Assembly (NCBI RefSeq): GCF_026810365.1 | Contig: NZ_CP113948.1 | Span: 810,001 to 874,000 of the forward strand | Length of the DNA: 64,000 nt | Direction: 5' to 3' | Source of the DNA: Flavobacterium praedii | Lineage (GTDB): Bacteria; Bacteroidota; Bacteroidia; Flavobacteriales; Flavobacteriaceae | Shown here: in pieces, positions 29,885 through 46,820 of the stretch | Numbering within the stretch: the first letter of the stretch is position 1 | Layout: each line of letters starts with the position of its first letter | Program-made: the position numbers and the translations under genes | The notes under the pieces: generated by a model | Databases searched by the model: none | The model's input: the letters and a program-made list of their open reading frames with translations, nothing else | Told to the model about the DNA's origin: nothing

Positions 29885-30133
29885 GAATAAAAATCAAGTA
29901 TAAGGTATTAGAGCATGTATCGGGTATCCAATCAATATAATAGATTATTTCATTTATTTTTATGAAAGATTTTAATTATGCTTTTTAGAAAAGTATGAAA
30001 TGATAAATTGTATTATTTGTATATACTATATTCTATTTTAATAAATTATAGCCTCTTTACTATAAATGGTATTAAAGAACTTTTTGTATTGAATATGAAA
30101 AGAAGTTTTTAACTTTATATTCAAAATAATAAA

Positions 30134-30169
30134 CCAAAAATGGGTTTGATTGCTCAAACCCATTTTTGG
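30134..30169 (-). terminator. Terminator of the NrfD/cytochrome operon
   Basis: Perfect 16-bp arms CCAAAAATGGGTTTGA and TCAAACCCATTTTTGG with a 4-base loop, 18 bases after the cytochrome stop. The 250 bases between this and the previous terminator hold no gene. Confidence 0.88.
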
Positions 30170-30187
30170 TATAAAATTATAATGATA

Positions 30188-30604
30188 CTATTTCATAGTT
30201 CTCATATAGGCAACAACAGCCCAAATTTCTGAATCACTTAATTTTTCTTTAAATGAAGGCATTGGTTTTCTACCTATTTTTGTTTTGTAGAACAATTCTC
30301 CATCAGACAATGATTGAAATTCTTTTGAAGAAAAATTACCACAACTAATATCAATTTTGTCCGCTTTTGTTCCATCACCAAGTCCTTTAACACCATGGCA
30401 AGATTTACAATCTTTTCCCCAAATGGCTTTTCCATCACTTATAGCTGTTGCATCTCCAGCTTTTACTGTACTTTTCTTGCTTGCATCAGCAGCAGGAACT
30501 TTCCATTCTTTACCTTTTGGTTTTGCTTGTGCATTACTAGTTTGAGTAAACATTAATACTGTTACTACGGCTATACCTAAAAGGATTTGTTTCAAATTTT
30601 TCAT
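30188..30604 (-). CDS. Periplasmic monoheme c-type cytochrome
   Basis: A 138-residue protein with a signal peptide ending TQTSNAQA, so it is soluble or loosely bound in the periplasm. One heme site, DCKSCHGVKGLGDG, and a candidate axial Met in GRKPMPSFKEKLSD, the class I pattern. The C-terminal helix is SEIWAVVAYMRTMK. It is last in the operon after the iron-sulfur, NrfD-like and anchored Ig-like proteins, so it is the likely acceptor that shuttles electrons away from the membrane module. Confidence 0.92.
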   Translation of the reverse strand: MKNLKQILLGIAVVTVLMFTQTSNAQAKPKGKEWKVPAADASKKSTVKAGDATAISDGKAIWGKDCKSCHGVKGLGDGTKADKIDISCGNFSSKEFQSLSDGELFYKTKIGRKPMPSFKEKLSDSEIWAVVAYMRTMK

Positions 30605-30632
30605 AATTGTAAATTTAATAGTTGTTTTAAAA

Positions 30633-31184
30633 TTAATTTTTATACTCTGTACCTAATCTTTTTATTCTAAACACTTGTATTACGGAGTAAATTAAATATC
30701 CCCATACTAGACCAATAGCTAATAAAGAGGAAACAATAAAATAGATTGGAGCTTCATCTCTTCCGGCTGAGATTGAACGTTCTTGTACATTTGAGTTATC
30801 ACTCACAACAATTTTACCCCAATTTACTTCAGCTCTTGCTTCAGTATTCATATAGTTTTCGTCGTCAGCTATTTTAGCAAATATAATCAATTTTCCGTTT
30901 CTAGATGGAATATCTTGAGGAATTTCAAAAGAAGCCACACCTGTAGAATCTGTAGCTACCTCTTCGCCTATGGGTAAATTACTGAATAAGCGCTTTACAG
31001 ATAAATTTACAGGTACTTCAGAAACTGGCTGTCCTTCAGATGTTACTAAAGCTTTGCAAATGTAAAGAGAATCCGCTTTTTCAAAAGTTAAGGTGATTTT
31101 TGCTACTTTATCTTGTGCATTTGAAATTGTTATAGCAAACAAAATCAATAAGCAAGTTGTCATAAAATATCTATATTTTTCCAT
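30633..31184 (-). CDS. Membrane-anchored periplasmic accessory protein
   Basis: A 183-residue protein with a signal peptide (to about residue 23), an all-beta, Ig-like domain (about 27-130, with VPVNLSVKRLF and DSTGVASFEIPQDIPSRNGK) and one C-terminal span (about 146-170, IYFIVSSLLAIGLVWGYLIYS) with a short basic tail. No heme or cysteine motif. It lies between the NrfD-like and cytochrome genes (7 and 28 base gaps) and probably helps assemble or dock the cytochrome. I know no named family. Confidence 0.75.
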   Translation of the reverse strand: MEKYRYFMTTCLLILFAITISNAQDKVAKITLTFEKADSLYICKALVTSEGQPVSEVPVNLSVKRLFSNLPIGEEVATDSTGVASFEIPQDIPSRNGKLIIFAKIADDENYMNTEARAEVNWGKIVVSDNSNVQERSISAGRDEAPIYFIVSSLLAIGLVWGYLIYSVIQVFRIKRLGTEYKN

Positions 31185-31191
31185 TTGGGAA

Positions 31192-32568
31192 TTATTTATA
31201 ATTAATGATTTCTTCTTTTCCTTCTAATTTTCCTTCCGCAACTTCCCATACAGATATGATTGGGAAAAATCTTGAGAACAAGGTTGTAATAAGCATGGTC
31301 CCGGCAATTGTTGCTGCTACTATAGTCATTTCAATCAAACTCGGTGTGTAATGTTTCCATGACGCTGGAACATCTTGTATAGGCAATAAAGGATGAGAGA
31401 GACCAGGTATTACAATCAAATAAAATTTAAACCAGCCTGCAATTAATACAGCGAGTGCTATAATTGTTAGCGGTAATGGTTTTCTCATTTTTTTGAACAT
31501 CGGCAAAACACTTGGTACCAAAATTCCAAAAAACACAACTGACCAATAAAAAAAGGCATTATTACCAACAAATAAATCCAATAAGTGATTGGCATGCAAA
31601 CCTGACATTTTATATGCAGGAACAAGATATTCATTGATGTTAAAGTAGGCATAAATTAATCCCATCAGTACCATTGCTTGACCTAATTTGTCAAAGTGCA
31701 TTTCTGTTAAATATTTTTCTAAATGGTATAATTTTCTAAAGGAAGAAATAGCGATAATCATTACTGCAACTGTTAATAAAGCAGAACCTGAAACAAAGTA
31801 GGCACCAAAATTAGTACTATCCCATTCTGGTCTTAAGGTTGTTGAGAAAAGCCATGCGCTTACTGTTCTTAATGCAATTCCTAAAGGAATTAGTAAAACG
31901 GTCAAAATAAGAACTGTTTTTTTAAGTATTTTCCATTGTTCTGCCGTGCCGTGCCAACCAAAAGAAAGAATGTCATACATTTTTAATTGCCATTTCGGAA
32001 GATTTTTCAAATGATTTTTGCAAGTTGATAGAGATGGTATTAATGCAATAAAAAGGACCAATACACAGGTTACAAAATAAGTCGCTACAACTATAATGTC
32101 CCAAACAATAGGAGATTGTATTCGTCCATATATAAATAAATGATGCAGTCTATCTGGACGTCCCATTGAAATCATTATGCAGATTCCAGCCATGGTTATA
32201 CTAGATAATGAAATCACATCTGCAATTCTAGAAAGAGGTCTGTACCATTCAAAATTCGTCAATTTTAATATTGCAGACATAAATACAGATGATAAACTTA
32301 AGGCTACTAAAAACAAAAAGTTGGAGATATAGATCCCCCACATGGTATAATCTCTTAAGCCAGTAGTAACATATTTACCCCTTGATTCTTGTAAATAATA
32401 GGCAACAACTCCTGCCAAGAATACTGCTGTTAGAAATGCAATCCATATTTTACCTGCTTTTCCAATCTTTTCAATTGGTCTGAGCAAGTCGTCTTTCATA
32501 ATCATATACTCTTCCTGGGTAAAGGTTTCGTATTTTGTTGATTCGGGTATATTTTTTTCTTCAGACAT
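31192..32568 (-). CDS. NrfD/PsrC-family quinol-interacting membrane subunit
   Basis: A 458-residue protein with about ten hydrophobic segments. Early motifs fit NrfD/PsrC: TGLRDYTMWGIYISNFLFLV, a helix ending in a Ser-rich turn, then SRIADVISLSSITMAG and SMGRPDRLHHLFIYGRIQSP, a stretch strongly conserved in alternative complex III and related NrfD subunits. It should oxidise or reduce menaquinol at the periplasmic side and exchange electrons with the iron-sulfur protein encoded 17 bases upstream. No catalytic molybdopterin subunit is encoded with it. Confidence 0.92.
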   Translation of the reverse strand: MSEEKNIPESTKYETFTQEEYMIMKDDLLRPIEKIGKAGKIWIAFLTAVFLAGVVAYYLQESRGKYVTTGLRDYTMWGIYISNFLFLVALSLSSVFMSAILKLTNFEWYRPLSRIADVISLSSITMAGICIMISMGRPDRLHHLFIYGRIQSPIVWDIIVVATYFVTCVLVLFIALIPSLSTCKNHLKNLPKWQLKMYDILSFGWHGTAEQWKILKKTVLILTVLLIPLGIALRTVSAWLFSTTLRPEWDSTNFGAYFVSGSALLTVAVMIIAISSFRKLYHLEKYLTEMHFDKLGQAMVLMGLIYAYFNINEYLVPAYKMSGLHANHLLDLFVGNNAFFYWSVVFFGILVPSVLPMFKKMRKPLPLTIIALAVLIAGWFKFYLIVIPGLSHPLLPIQDVPASWKHYTPSLIEMTIVAATIAGTMLITTLFSRFFPIISVWEVAEGKLEGKEEIINYK

Positions 32569-32585
32569 AATTTTCTTTTTAAAGA

Positions 32586-33521
32586 TTATTCTTTTGTGTT
32601 ATGTGCTTCGGTTGCATCTTCAAACGGGAAATTACGAGCAACTGGAGGAAGGTAGTATACACGTGGTTTTGTACCTAATTCTTCAAATTCACGATAAGCT
32701 CCTCTATCTTGTAGAAGTTTTTTCAGTCTGAAAGTGTCTTCACCATTGGTAACTACATCTTCTAATTCGTCACCATGAAGTATGGCACCATTTGGACATT
32801 CTACTACACAAGCAGGCAATAGCCCTTTAGAAGATCTGTCAGTACAGAAATCACATTTTGCAACAGTTCCTTCTTGTGCAAAAGGCGTAGTACAGTGGTT
32901 TGGATCCGAAGTGTCGTTTTTATGTTCTTCGGTAAATTTTAATTGTTCTGGTCTTCCAAAATTAAAAGTACGGGCAGAATATGGACAAGCAGCCATACAG
33001 AATTTACATCCTATGCAACGATCATAATCCATGGCAACTATTCCGTCAGAACGTTTATAGGTTGCGTCAACTGGACATACTTTTGTACAAGGTGGATTGT
33101 CACAATGGTAACACATAGTAGGGAACCAGTATGGAGATGTTAATTCTGAATCTTGCATCTTTTTTACCTTGATATACTCAATAGGCGCTAATATGTTATG
33201 CGCTTTTTGACAGCCTTCAATACATTTTCTTTCATTAGCACATTTTGCTAAATCAATAACACGTATGAATTTTTTACCTTCAACCCCTTGGCGAATTTCT
33301 TCTTTGGAAAAGTTATCATTTGAAGCATGATGATCAACATGTGAGCTATCAACCTCGATTAATTTTCCATCAGCTGTAAGTACTTTTACTTTTTTCCCGG
33401 TTTTTTCTTTATCATCACATGAAATAGTACTTACTACTGCTGTTCCTGCTAAAGCTACACTACCTAAAGCGCCAAGTTTTAGGAAATTCCTGCGGGACGA
33501 TTTGTTGTCTTCTTTTTCCAT
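32586..33521 (-). CDS. Tat-exported 4Fe-4S ferredoxin-type subunit (NrfC/PsrB-like)
   Basis: A 311-residue protein. The Tat signal SSRRNFLKLGALGSVALAG places it outside the inner membrane. Cysteine groups: KCANERKCIEGCQKAH, MCYHCDNPPCTKVCP, RCIGCKFCMAACP and KCDFCTD with ACVVECP, enough for four cubane clusters in the usual interleaved arrangement of DmsB/NrfC. First gene of the four-gene operon (iron-sulfur, NrfD-like, anchored protein, cytochrome c). It is the electron bridge between the NrfD-like protein and a cytochrome. Confidence 0.93.
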   Translation of the reverse strand: MEKEDNKSSRRNFLKLGALGSVALAGTAVVSTISCDDKEKTGKKVKVLTADGKLIEVDSSHVDHHASNDNFSKEEIRQGVEGKKFIRVIDLAKCANERKCIEGCQKAHNILAPIEYIKVKKMQDSELTSPYWFPTMCYHCDNPPCTKVCPVDATYKRSDGIVAMDYDRCIGCKFCMAACPYSARTFNFGRPEQLKFTEEHKNDTSDPNHCTTPFAQEGTVAKCDFCTDRSSKGLLPACVVECPNGAILHGDELEDVVTNGEDTFRLKKLLQDRGAYREFEELGTKPRVYYLPPVARNFPFEDATEAHNTKE

Positions 33522-33610
33522 CTTATTTCTATTTATATGTAAATAATTATTTCAAAACATTTGAAGATTTATGTTTTTGAAAAGGGATAATGATGCGGAG
33601 TTTTATAAAT

Positions 33611-33654
33611 AAAAAAGAGGATTACATATCGGGATGATATAAACCCTCTTTTAT
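33611..33654 (-). terminator. Terminator after the DUF5777 gene
   Basis: AAAAAAGAGG (33611-33620) pairs with CCTCTTTT (33644-33652), with A/T runs outside. It separates the barrel/monoheme unit from the iron-sulfur operon. Confidence 0.65.
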
Positions 33655-33676
33655 TAATAGTATTTTTAAAAACTGC

Positions 33677-34516
33677 CTACCAAGATTTTGTAATATTAAA
33701 TCCTATCATGAATTCTCCATCAAAGAAATCATTAGAATTATACATAATGTTTTGTTGGTTAACAATTCCTTTAGAATTGCTTATAAACAATTGGAATGCA
33801 TGCTGAACAGCACTGTATTCCAACCCAATACCAAAACCTGGTTTTGGGGTACTTTGCTCATACTTCATCAAAGGAGTAGTAGCATCAACAATAAGTGATA
33901 TGTCTGGGATAAACATATATCTACCACCTGCACTAAAGGCTGCCATATCGTTTTTTATTGCCTTATCTACTCGATTATAGTGAGAATAGCTTGGAGCAAT
34001 TTGAAAAGAAATTGTTTTGCTTACCTTTCTAGAAATTATTAATTGATTGTAAAAGGACCAACGATCTGAGGTGTGATAAAAACCCTCTTTCGGTGATGCA
34101 TTAACAGTCCAGTTTCCATAATAAGTTAAATTAAAAGGCATTTTGTCATTTTTAGTTTGTTTAAAAATAGCTGCTTTTAAATTAAAATCTTGTAGTCTAC
34201 TGTCTTTTGTAGAACCAAATCCAACGGTAATTCTATCTGTAACTGCATAACTTAAGGCTATGCGAATGTTGGTAGCTCCCCAAACTCCTATCATGTCATT
34301 TGTGCCAGTTACCAAACCAAAACGGTGATTCATAATAAATTCTATAGTACCTTTTGAAAAAACGCGATCAGTTTGGTTGTCTATCAAACCAGTACTTTCG
34401 AAAGCTGGTTTTTCATATTCAATCTCTACGGGTGCAATAGTATCTGTTTCCTCTTGCGCCAATAGCGAAAGGGGGAAAACAAACAGCGCTATATATATTA
34501 ATTTATATAATTTCAT
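33677..34516 (-). CDS. DUF5777 outer-membrane beta-barrel protein
   Basis: A 279-residue protein from the Met at 34516 (MKLYKLIYIALFVFPLSLLA, a signal peptide); a frame-only start 25 codons earlier runs back into the preceding gene and is rejected. The body is alternating beta strands: IDNQTDRVFSKGTIEFIMNH, ITVGFGSTKDSRLQDFNLKA and a C-terminal strand MIGFNITKSW, diagnostic of DUF5777. Such barrels occur beside cytochromes in Bacteroidota. Encoded 16 bases after a monoheme lipoprotein. Predicted outer-membrane location; it could be a porin-like sleeve for a heme protein. Confidence 0.88.
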   Translation of the reverse strand: MKLYKLIYIALFVFPLSLLAQEETDTIAPVEIEYEKPAFESTGLIDNQTDRVFSKGTIEFIMNHRFGLVTGTNDMIGVWGATNIRIALSYAVTDRITVGFGSTKDSRLQDFNLKAAIFKQTKNDKMPFNLTYYGNWTVNASPKEGFYHTSDRWSFYNQLIISRKVSKTISFQIAPSYSHYNRVDKAIKNDMAAFSAGGRYMFIPDISLIVDATTPLMKYEQSTPKPGFGIGLEYSAVQHAFQLFISNSKGIVNQQNIMYNSNDFFDGEFMIGFNITKSW

Positions 34517-34532
34517 TTCTGTTCTTTTTAAA

Positions 34533-34916
34533 TTAGTTATTAAGAGCGCCATCATTAATCCATTTTTTGACCAATTCAATTTTTGAATCACTTAATTTTC
34601 CTGCAGGAGGCATTAGTGGTGCTCCCACACCAATTAAACATTTATATAAAATGCTATTTGCTGCGTCTGCTGGAACTACATATTTGTTGTTTTTTGTTAA
34701 AGCAGAATAGGAATTTGCAGCCGTTAAATCCGGTGCCGTTGATCCAGTCGAATGGCAATTTACACAATTTTGATTCCACAATGGTTGAACATCTTTTGCA
34801 TATGAAACAGTGTCTGGAAGAGGAGTAATTGCTTCTGGTGGCACTTCGTCATAGTAACAGGATGTGGCCATCAAACTCACTGTTAGCATCATTATATATT
34901 GAATTATTTTTTTCAT
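34533..34916 (-). CDS. Monoheme c-type cytochrome lipoprotein
   Basis: A 127-residue protein with a lipoprotein signal (VSLMATSC, Cys20). One heme site, NQNCVNCHSTGSTAPDL, and a possible axial Met in APLMPPAGKLSD. The order of parts (YAKDVQPLWNQNCVNCH, then LVKKWINDGA) is that of the small planctomycete-type/PSCyt1-like cytochromes. It is lipid-anchored, probably in the outer membrane facing the DUF5777 barrel, its operon partner. Confidence 0.9.
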   Translation of the reverse strand: MKKIIQYIMMLTVSLMATSCYYDEVPPEAITPLPDTVSYAKDVQPLWNQNCVNCHSTGSTAPDLTAANSYSALTKNNKYVVPADAANSILYKCLIGVGAPLMPPAGKLSDSKIELVKKWINDGALNN

Positions 34917-35325
34917 CTTTTTATTTTTTAATTGAATAATTGTTTTATAAAGTTTTATTCAACAATTTTCATTGTCAAAAGATTTAAAATTTCGTAAACA
35001 ATCGCTATGTAACTAAAGAAAGAGTGTTATGCCAAATTTTATTTCTTTTACAAATTTCAAATTTTGTTACTCATACAGTATAATTGTTTGCTAACTTCCA
35101 AGTAATATTTACATTCTCGATTTGTTCAATTTACTGTTTTGATTTTGATATTGTTTCTAGAATTATTTTCTACATAATAACTACTTTCATTAATAGTTTC
35201 AGTAGCAACTACCATTATAAAGAAGTGTTCAATAAAAAGAACTCTAGCAATCAATGGAATAACGCATCTTGCTGATTAAGATTCCTATATTCAATAGTTA
35301 TATTAGAATGTAGTACTGTTTTATT
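34917..35325. other. Intergenic region between the two cytochrome lipoprotein genes
   Basis: AT-rich. It must hold the promoter of the monoheme/DUF5777 unit. A plus-strand frame (35084-35275) has no ribosome site and no protein-like pattern. Confidence 0.4.
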
Positions 35326-35355
35326 AATACCTCCGGGTTTTTGCCCAGAGGTATT
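35326..35355 (-). terminator. Terminator of the hexaheme gene
   Basis: AATACCTC-C-GGG and CCC-A-GAGGTATT form a hairpin 18 bases past the stop. The T-rich tail is on the plus side, so the strand assignment rests on the position. Confidence 0.6.
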
Positions 35356-35372
35356 TTTATTATTATATTTTT

Positions 35373-36704
35373 TTATTTTAAAGCTTCAATAGAATTTTGG
35401 ATTAAAGCCATTGAGTAAAGTGGATTGTGAACTCCTTTACCTTCATCTCCTGTTACTAGTTTGTAATTCCAATAAGCTTGTACATATTTTAAAGGAAAAT
35501 CTGTTCTTGATTGATACCAAGTTGTTGCAGTTGTTGTTCCTGAAGCTGGTGTTGTTGGGAACGGAGTATTGCCATTAGCGCTATCATATGCTATTATACT
35601 TACACTAGATCCAGAAACTTTAAAATAAGTTGGTTTTGATGCGAATGCAGCTACTAATTTAGAAACTTCAGTATCAAATTTTGCATGGAAAGTTTCTAAT
35701 GTGGCTTCTGGAGTAGGATGACATGATACGCAAACATTAAAAGCAAGTTTCATTGTGTGTGAACCCGTATTTGTAGTTCCAGTTTTTGGAGTATCCATGT
35801 GGCATTTTACACATGAAACAGATTTGAAGTGAGCAGCCGTTTTAGAAGCAGGTAAGTGTGTAGTTGTTCCTTCAATATCAATACCGTTGATTCCCATCCA
35901 TAAATCTCCTTGTTCTGAAGCGTGTACTCCAGTACCAGTATTAGAGTAATTTTTGTAATAGGTAGTACCTGCTGGATAAGGAGCAATTGCATCTGCCAGT
36001 TTTCTTTGAGACCAAAATCTATATAAAGGACCTTTTACAGGATCATTAGTTATGACAACATTCCCAGAAGCATCTTTTTCTGCCATTTCAATAACGGGTC
36101 TTTTGTAATATCCATTTGAATCTGGTCTTGCTTGGTGACATCCAATACAAGTGTTTGCAGAACTAACACCATCAGTTGGAGATGCATTTAAAAAGAAACC
36201 TGGATTCGTTTTTTGAGGTACAGCATCTATATTTCTTAAACCATAATCATTTCCGTCGGTTGTAAAATTAAGGGATCTGTGGGTAGTTCCATGACAACCA
36301 GTACAAGAGATTGAGGTATAATTGTCATATCCTCTAGGATTTGGTTTTCCATACATTTTTGTGTCTATATATCCTTCTTGTGAGTGACATTGAGAACAAA
36401 ATGCTCGATTGCTATTTAAAGATCCATCAGCAAAAGTAGTATTTGTTCCATAAGTATGTTGAGAATATACACCAGTTGCTTCGTTTAAAACCCCTTTTGC
36501 GTGCACTGATTCTCCATAAGCTGCAATAATAGGCGCTTTGTGAGCTACAGAGTGACAAGATTCACAAGAGGCAGTTCCAGCAATTCCGTCTGTTCCGTTT
36601 GTTCCTGCAGGACCTGGAACCGGTACATAGTCATCATGGCTACAACCTTGCAACACAAAGACAACTGAAAAAAGTAGGAATATTCCTTTTTTTAATGTTT
36701 TCAT
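35373..36704 (-). CDS. Hexaheme c-type cytochrome lipoprotein
   Basis: A 443-residue protein. Lipoprotein signal FVLQGCSHDD (Cys21), then a short collagen-like run PGPAGTNGTDGIAGTA, then six Cys-x2-Cys-His sites: CESCH, CSQCH, CTGCH, CIGCH, CVKCH and CVSCH, with additional His residues suited to bis-His ligation. The region after the sixth heme (about 360-443) is soluble and mostly beta. It is an outer-membrane-anchored multiheme protein, possibly exposed at the surface. It has its own unit just upstream of the monoheme/DUF5777 pair and the NrfD operon. Confidence 0.93.
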   Translation of the reverse strand: MKTLKKGIFLLFSVVFVLQGCSHDDYVPVPGPAGTNGTDGIAGTASCESCHSVAHKAPIIAAYGESVHAKGVLNEATGVYSQHTYGTNTTFADGSLNSNRAFCSQCHSQEGYIDTKMYGKPNPRGYDNYTSISCTGCHGTTHRSLNFTTDGNDYGLRNIDAVPQKTNPGFFLNASPTDGVSSANTCIGCHQARPDSNGYYKRPVIEMAEKDASGNVVITNDPVKGPLYRFWSQRKLADAIAPYPAGTTYYKNYSNTGTGVHASEQGDLWMGINGIDIEGTTTHLPASKTAAHFKSVSCVKCHMDTPKTGTTNTGSHTMKLAFNVCVSCHPTPEATLETFHAKFDTEVSKLVAAFASKPTYFKVSGSSVSIIAYDSANGNTPFPTTPASGTTTATTWYQSRTDFPLKYVQAYWNYKLVTGDEGKGVHNPLYSMALIQNSIEALK

Positions 36705-46639: not shown

Positions 46640-46696
46640 TGTATTTAAATTTAGATTTGGGGTTTATTTATAAATTAAGTTGATATTTAATGTTTT

Positions 46697-46820
46697 GCGT
46701 GAGTGATGGCAGTGGAGCTCTTTTTTTGATTCCGTTTTTGCGGAATCAAAAAAAAGCGGGAACGTACAGCACGACCCTTGGTCTCGTCTTTTTTGACGAG
46801 GCAAAGGGACACGCCCAAAT
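46697..46820 (+). ncRNA. Structured RNA candidate, copy 3 of 3 (Flavo-1-like)
   Basis: It opens GCGTGAGTGATGGCAG, contains AGCACGACCC and closes ACACGCCCAAAT. The ends pair GCGTG/CACGC. An inner stem (TTTTTTTGATTCCG with CGGAATCAAAAAAA) lies before the core and CCCTTGGTCTCGTC pairs with GACGAGGCAAAGGG after it. Same orientation as copies 1 and 2, and again just beyond the 3' end of a minus-strand gene (mscS). Confidence 0.6.

Follow-up and report, generated by a model that had tools for sequence, protein, structure and literature searches.

A predicted ActC-type quinol dehydrogenase operon linked to outer-membrane heme lipoprotein genes in Flavobacterium praedii: a candidate route of electron export

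Positions 30188–36704 of a stretch of 64,000 nucleotides from Flavobacterium praedii (the window; bases 810001–874000 of a genome that consists of one contig of 4.17 Mb) carry seven genes whose products may lead electrons from the quinol pool to the cell surface. All seven open reading frames (ORFs) point leftward in the window ORF list, and they encode, in this order, a hexaheme lipoprotein, a monoheme lipoprotein, a DUF5777 barrel, an iron-sulfur (FeS) protein exported by twin-arginine translocation (Tat), an NrfD-family protein, a protein with an Ig-like domain and a membrane helix at its C-terminus, and a cytochrome c. A sequence-only reading of the window had given the genes in this order, to which Pfam matches and heme counts conform. 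Linkage of the seven genes, which it had also proposed, is strongly confirmed in relatives, and its functional interpretation is partly supported: that the products form a two-part module for quinol-dependent electron export to the cell surface has, in our estimate, a little under an even chance of being right. The features are:

35373–36704, minus strand: hexaheme c-type lipoprotein with a collagen-like linker after the lipid cysteine and an export-like signal (C-SHDDY); six CxxCH, six candidate distal histidines, profile matches to OcwA and NrfA
34533–34916, minus strand: monoheme class I-like cytochrome c lipoprotein (C-YYDEV); PF13442 E 1.6e-6, M102 the likely distal ligand
33677–34516, minus strand: DUF5777 outer-membrane beta-barrel of 12 strands; PF19089 E 2.1e-66, AlphaFold2 model
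32586–33521, minus strand: Tat-exported FeS protein of DsrO/NrfC type with 15 cluster cysteines and a first motif Cx5Cx3Cx3H; NCBIfam DsrO E 8.7e-52
31192–32568, minus strand: NrfD-family membrane subunit, predicted to be of the quinol-binding ActC type; PF03916 E 1.5e-20, ActC chains of the PDB by profile
30633–31184, minus strand: protein with a signal peptide, an Ig-like domain and a transmembrane helix at its C-terminus, likely the tether between NrfD and cytochrome c; weak MG4/Big_1 matches, fusions
30188–30604, minus strand: periplasmic monoheme cytochrome c (Cytochrome_CBB3); PF13442 E 3.1e-13
30133–30170, minus strand: terminator-like hairpin of 17 pairs, 3' of the last gene; hairpin scan

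Lakes, sediments and groundwater commonly harbour Bacteroidota. In the part of the literature that our search covered, there was no description of the seven-gene set, none for DUF5777 and no described electron route across the outer membrane of Flavobacterium-like Bacteroidota. A survey of quinone oxidoreductases for extracellular electron transfer lists 0, 5 and 1 Bacteroidetes homologues of three types (PMC6295460). The conserved set, which would connect the quinol pool with candidate surface hemes, offers a candidate route that can be tested directly in Flavobacterium species that grow in culture.

Conservation and linkage of the gene set

The window NrfD belongs to a special group whose members are 34–87% identical to the window copy, whereas ActC proteins reach 26–30%. 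All 149 Flavobacteriaceae genomes surveyed have at least one NrfD match, but the special NrfD was found in only 11 of them, the window genome included (E 7e-78 or better), in 11 of 150 genomes of the genus (E 1e-60 or better) and in 8 of 296 genomes of the phylum (E 1e-80 or better); among the NrfD matches listed outside the group, identity is 27–30%, which is the ActC level. DUF5777 is present in 76 of the 149 family genomes, namely in all 11 that have the special NrfD versus 65 of the 138 that do not.

Neighbourhoods were examined in all 20 other genomes of the family and genus surveys that carry the special NrfD. The order heme lipoprotein, monoheme lipoprotein, DUF5777, FeS, NrfD recurs in 17 of the 20, the first gene encoding a hexaheme protein in 11 and a diheme protein in 6, and the remaining three (G293, G192, G216) are interrupted upstream by contig ends. 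The genes for the Ig-like protein and cytochrome c come next in the 17, save at contig ends (cytochrome c in G034, both in G162). Since the order is conserved, chance can be rejected as the cause of the clustering. G044 has an additional second operon without the outer-membrane triad (L050), and in six family genomes the FeS-NrfD-Ig-cytochrome c genes stand in two or three tandem copies.

A scan of a collection of species genomes yielded at least 591 stretches with the peptide pattern of the NrfD group, of which 584 also satisfied a loose tblastn threshold (E 1e-3); not all 584 therefore need belong to the special group. The counts that follow refer to the best 80 of these 584 stretches, in 79 of which the NrfD gene was called (L095 was dropped). 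Seventy-eight of them bear names of genera that we take to be Bacteroidota and two are labelled "uncultured bacterium"; the closest named NrfD match among the 80 is from a metagenome-assembled Flavobacterium genome (92%), and the culturable species Flavobacterium fluvii and F. franklandianum are represented too. Where at least 5 kb upstream and at least 2.5 kb downstream of NrfD were available (51 loci), the FeS gene is present in 51, the Ig-like gene in 50 and the cytochrome c gene in 47, and DUF5777 and the monoheme gene both lie within 9 kb on the same strand as NrfD in 40. Of the 58 DUF5777 genes in the best 80 loci, 53 have a monoheme gene at most two ORFs away. The gene hemA (glutamyl-tRNA reductase) adjoins the cluster in L040 (7165–8376) and L046 (15270–16487), both by Pfam, and in L125 by BLAST label, which is consistent with an extra demand for heme. 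In G022 a gene for an eleven-heme cytochrome, adjoining one for an NHL-repeat protein, lies beside the cluster (L047 16230–18967).

The predicted quinol dehydrogenase

For the comparison of NrfD with the PDB a profile built from 13 NrfD proteins and no ActC was used (A2); the matches of an earlier profile (A1) were discarded because it contained the genome's own ActC. The ActC-free profile found four distinct ActC chains (E 2.7e-60 to 7.5e-58), followed by four ActF chains (E 1e-8 to 4e-5) and nothing further below 0.001. By this comparison the window NrfD is predicted to be a quinol-binding subunit of ActC type, which agrees with the quinol function assigned to it from the sequence. The quinone-site residues of ActC from R. 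marinus are His139, Ser164, Asp169 and Asp253 (PMC8076601), two of which, Ser164 and Asp169, are retained as S152 and D157.

The FeS protein (311 aa; Fer4_11, E 5e-19, Pfam) carries the Tat motif SRRNFLK, which can be read directly in the sequence. It had been described as a Tat-exported four-cluster ferredoxin; the export signal stands, but "four-cluster" has to be qualified, the protein having 15 rather than the usual 16 cluster cysteines. The second cysteine of the first motif is replaced by Ala, Glu or Leu in 22/22 aligned homologues, and C94, C100, C104 and H108 are invariant in the same number of FeS proteins, so that the motif reads Cx5Cx3Cx3H; the genome's own ActB has lost another of the cluster cysteines. 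The best NCBIfam match is DsrO with 175.9 bits, below the curated cut-off of 200, and NrfD scores 83.8 bits against DsrP, below that of 350, so that neither window protein reaches the level of its DsrMKJOP counterpart. Many relatives have a gene for a small protein (86–96 aa) between DUF5777 and FeS (e.g., L041 14710–14976, L063 7896–8156, L042 4549–4839), which is not seen in the window; the two that were read, from L041 and L063, have a Tat-like start and, in common with the N-terminus of the FeS protein, a short segment (about LxxDGxxVxV).

The Ig-like anchored protein has a C-terminal transmembrane helix; its MG4/Big_1 matches are weak and below the Pfam cut-offs. Natural fusions join the Ig-like protein to NrfD in two genomes and, in three loci, to cytochrome c, which in the operon has one CxxCH. 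It is therefore very likely that FeS, NrfD, Ig-like protein and cytochrome c belong to one complex, and the sequence comparisons suggest a single membrane complex that is a stripped-down relative of alternative complex III (ActABCDEF). Common to both are the ActC-type NrfD and the gene order, FeS-NrfD-tether-monoheme paralleling ActB-C-D-E. The cluster differs in being without ActA, the molybdoenzyme-like half of ActB and ActF, and its FeS protein, unlike ActB, stands alone and has lost another cysteine. A fragment or decayed form of alternative complex III can be rejected because the genome has an alternative complex III operon elsewhere (L049) and the NrfD groups separately.

No ActA or ActB is linked to the cluster in the fetched loci of relatives, and none is found in the window cluster, nor is ActF or a molybdopterin catalytic subunit, just as had been read from the sequence. 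A hidden molybdoenzyme partner was also considered and rejected, none of the three PF00384 matches of the genome being near; one of them (C1:1690835–1692121) lies in a frame of 1196 aa, about the length of NarG, and is unlinked to the cluster. When ActB and NarG were used as phmmer queries over 360 proteins of at least 400 aa from the fetched loci, NarG was found in three loci, and the ActB query returned its own source (L049) and three NarH-like proteins; a very distant molybdoenzyme would be missed by this search. The narG gene is above the NCBIfam cut-off in all three (L130, L145, L149), and in L149 narH and narI pass and narJ fails. These three loci also have a cytochrome c-Ig fusion, with a diheme cytochrome in between.

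A quinol dehydrogenase without its own catalytic subunit is of an already known kind, of which the window set is a variant. CbcSTU/Cbc4 of Geobacter, NrfCD of Melioribacter and SirCD of Shewanella likewise consist of FeS and NrfD proteins that serve cytochromes, and links to metal reduction have been proposed or shown for them; compared by composition, CbcSTU and NrfCD lack a catalytic subunit as the window operon does. Of these, SirCD belongs to a sulfite reductase, whose quinol pair it forms. The account of the MccACD sulfite reductase in PMC8076601 is in line with this role, and SirCD can also serve ferric citrate reduction (PMC11434368). For the Melioribacter pair, which is without a molybdoenzyme, it has been proposed that it feeds an outer-membrane Fe(III) reductase (PMC3534657). 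What sets the window set apart from CbcSTU, NrfCD and SirCD are the ActC-type NrfD, the Ig tether, its own cytochrome c and the linked outer-membrane triad. In the export reading, the four proteins would form one inner-membrane complex comparable to CbcSTU, in which NrfD would oxidise menaquinol at the periplasmic side and the FeS clusters would relay the electrons to the small cytochrome c that the Ig-like tether keeps in place.

The outer-membrane proteins and the direction of electron flow

DUF5777 is assigned with 224.1 bits (curated cut-off 23.1), and its AlphaFold2 model has 12 strands at a mean predicted local distance difference test score (pLDDT) of 90. The closest solved folds are FapF, KdgM, NanC and autotransporter barrels; conduit porins are absent from the fold matches listed, as they are from the PDB sequence matches listed, which by itself proves nothing. 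The adjacent monoheme lipoprotein has one CxxCH, and M102 is found in 24/27 aligned proteins. As in Mtr and Pcc, a barrel gene thus stands beside genes for a multiheme lipoprotein and a second cytochrome, but conduits of the Mtr/Pcc kind have 18–28 predicted strands, Pcc 18–22, and a cytochrome of 5–14 hemes inserted in the barrel (PMC4245776). With 12 strands and one heme the window barrel therefore cannot be built like Mtr or Pcc. The likeness to porin-cytochrome conduits, to which the sequence-only reading had pointed, is weakened by this and by the occurrence of DUF5777 near YceI (see below); a conduit remains plausible in another form, and should the barrel belong to the path, the rule that conduits need a wide barrel with a multiheme wire inside would be broken.

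The pairing of one heme with one barrel also recalls Cyc2, for which it has been proposed that the only heme plugs the barrel and that Fe(II) enters the pore (PMC8406198). Electrons might accordingly flow inward: the surface heme lipoprotein or the monoheme-plugged barrel, as a split Cyc2-like device, would oxidise a donor outside the cell, for instance Fe(II), whose electrons the NrfD unit would pass on. The monoheme profile matches FoxE (E 3e-7), and several record titles, which appear to name lakes and groundwater, would fit such a life. We nevertheless regard inward flow as improbable. In Cyc2 the heme and a barrel of 16 predicted strands are fused in one protein, whereas the window has two genes, 12 strands and an extra heme lipoprotein. 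The FoxE match signifies kinship only at the level of class I cytochromes c, the named cultured genera are known as heterotrophs, and driving menaquinone reduction with Fe(II) is uphill.

The hexaheme lipoprotein has its CxxCH motifs at residues 47, 103, 134, 186, 298 and 325. There are six candidate distal histidines for the six hemes, four conserved in 20/20 aligned proteins and the others in 19/20 and 17/20, which fits a function in electron transfer. Its profile finds as best relative in the PDB OcwA, then NrfA and, weakly, HAO, in the C-terminal part; the kinship to OcwA is distant, the match spanning only profile positions 232–359 of 365, and OcwA, from the Gram-positive Thermincola, has nine hemes. 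OcwA is a terminal reductase at the cell surface that also acts on nitrite and hydroxylamine (PMC6703420), and the hexaheme protein could thus itself act enzymatically on a soluble substrate outside the cell (nitrite, hydroxylamine or a sulfur oxyanion), as a surface cousin of NrfA and OcwA to which the other genes supply electrons. The chance of this seems slim to us: the six candidate distal histidines leave no clearly open heme, relatives fill the same slot with other heme lipoproteins, and CxxCK was found in none of the 20 aligned proteins, though OcwA, as far as described in PMC6703420, is also without CxxCK at its open hemes.

Both the hexaheme and the monoheme lipoprotein bear signals that resemble the surface-export signal of F. 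johnsoniae, which is given as SDDFE (PMC5080379), and so may be surface-exposed. An acidic residue at +2 to +6 is present in 22/22 lipoproteins labelled hexaheme (19 of them truly six-heme), 6/6 diheme, 19/21 EB_dh and 47/57 monoheme proteins versus 56/118 other lipoproteins, counting only lipoproteins with a visible lipobox (7 EB_dh and 17 monoheme proteins without one were dropped). The slot upstream of the monoheme gene is variable. A third heme lipoprotein was found there in 34 of the 40 loci with barrel and monoheme gene, namely 21 of EB_dh type, several with an inserted c heme, 6 diheme, 5 hexaheme and 2 other heme proteins, and this variety suits a general electron outlet better than one substrate.

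In the preferred reading, export, these three proteins would form an outer-membrane assembly that brings the electrons to the outer face, where the third heme lipoprotein would, as terminal donor, hand them to an acceptor outside the cell (a metal oxide, humics, a flavin or another cell as partner). The weakest step is the barrel. It might be the mouth or dock plugged by a lipoprotein, or an assembly partner of the lipoproteins, since 12 strands leave no room for a folded cytochrome inside; our guess is that a lipoprotein is flipped outside by the Bacteroidota export route and plugs or docks on the small barrel. That the three form a complex, and also their surface position, the direction of flow and the substrate, we infer. 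This outer-membrane half of the module may be new. The farther-reaching view, that a minimal ActC-type menaquinol dehydrogenase and a 12-strand-barrel outlet with a variable surface heme, exported as a lipoprotein, make up a native extracellular electron transfer of Bacteroidota that needs no porin-cytochrome tube, is in our judgment doubtful.

Several findings weigh against export. In NrfD, two of the four quinone-site residues of ActC, His139 and Asp253, are replaced by S134 and L240. The OcwA and NrfA matches require the profile, the window hexaheme protein alone yielding none, and the structure model of this protein is poor (pLDDT 53; best Foldseek match E 0.25), too poor for use. The signal test is crude, and a few diheme relatives that BLAST had failed to find are among its 118 controls. 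No third heme lipoprotein was found upstream in 6 of the 40 loci, and in four family genomes an EB_dh-type gene lies between the hexaheme and monoheme genes, so that the types add as well as swap. Regular linkage to a molybdoenzyme or loss of the barrel was mostly not seen, with these exceptions: narG and narH-like genes lie beside FeS-NrfD in 3/80 loci, and the barrel-monoheme pair is missing in up to 11/51 flanked loci, two of which (L087 and L119) keep a DUF5777 gene nearby. The pair also occurs elsewhere: in 18 loci of 18 genomes (12–17 kb each), chosen among the 65 with DUF5777 but without the special NrfD and labelled by BLAST to a reference set, YceI is present in 18/18 and the monoheme gene in 16/18. 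In these Flavobacteriaceae sets the barrel and monoheme families are the same, and YceI replaces the NrfD operon and the third heme lipoprotein. The role of the barrel and monoheme protein is therefore older or wider, and the NrfD operon may be only one of several systems to which they are coupled. The window genome itself has such a second set (C1:4086340–4088442; L003 9341–11443), from which the YceI label was taken; its YceI is above the Pfam cut-off and its monoheme protein below its own. It lies downstream of genes for an extracytoplasmic function (ECF) sigma factor, FecR, a TonB-receptor plug and a tRNA_anti-like protein. Finally, divergence is correlated within the two blocks (barrel-monoheme r 0.70; the four operon genes r 0.61–0.84) more strongly than across them (r 0.33–0.60), in values from 36 of 63 loci that, having no species-tree control, rank pairs and do not prove interaction; the joint divergence inside each block by itself favours the two-part module.

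These last findings (YceI sets, missing pairs, narG neighbours and cross-block divergence), together with the resemblance to ActB-C-D-E, would suit an inner-membrane complex that is a plain periplasmic quinol:cytochrome c oxidoreductase for oxidases or periplasmic reductases, the outer-membrane genes being neighbours with another job, e.g., the handling of lipid or quinone-like molecules with YceI. We think this unlikely, if worth serious attention. Pair and operon are together in 40 of the 51 loci and in 17/17 Flavobacteriaceae relatives with enough contig, and since the genome already holds an alternative complex III operon, a further quinol:cytochrome c enzyme would have to have a partner of its own.

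Gene boundaries and other observations

Within the FeS-NrfD-Ig-cytochrome c operon the intergenic distances are 17, 7 and 28 bp, and the two larger gaps of the cluster are 456 and 155 bp. The three adjacent transcription units of the sequence-only reading are thus plausible but weakly supported: the gaps and the hairpin speak for them, while the promoter scans do not rise above chance. A Bacteroidota-type promoter pattern has a single match in 30188–36704, within the Ig gene, and sigma-70-like sites at the cluster are no more frequent than in shuffles (35 versus 37.5). The monoheme gene does lie next to the DUF5777 gene, as had been read, but the DUF5777 start probably has to be moved. The listed ORF reaches 34591, with a GTG start inside the monoheme gene, and the ATG at 34516, 16 bases past the monoheme stop, is the more likely start.

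Farther away, the window contains a Flavo-1 RNA (RF01705) at 46692–46780 (54 bits). Far from the cluster the genome encodes a ten-heme cytochrome (Cytochrom_CIII; C1:922780–924245, L005 4780–6245), beside which lies a gene for a small membrane-like protein without a Pfam family.

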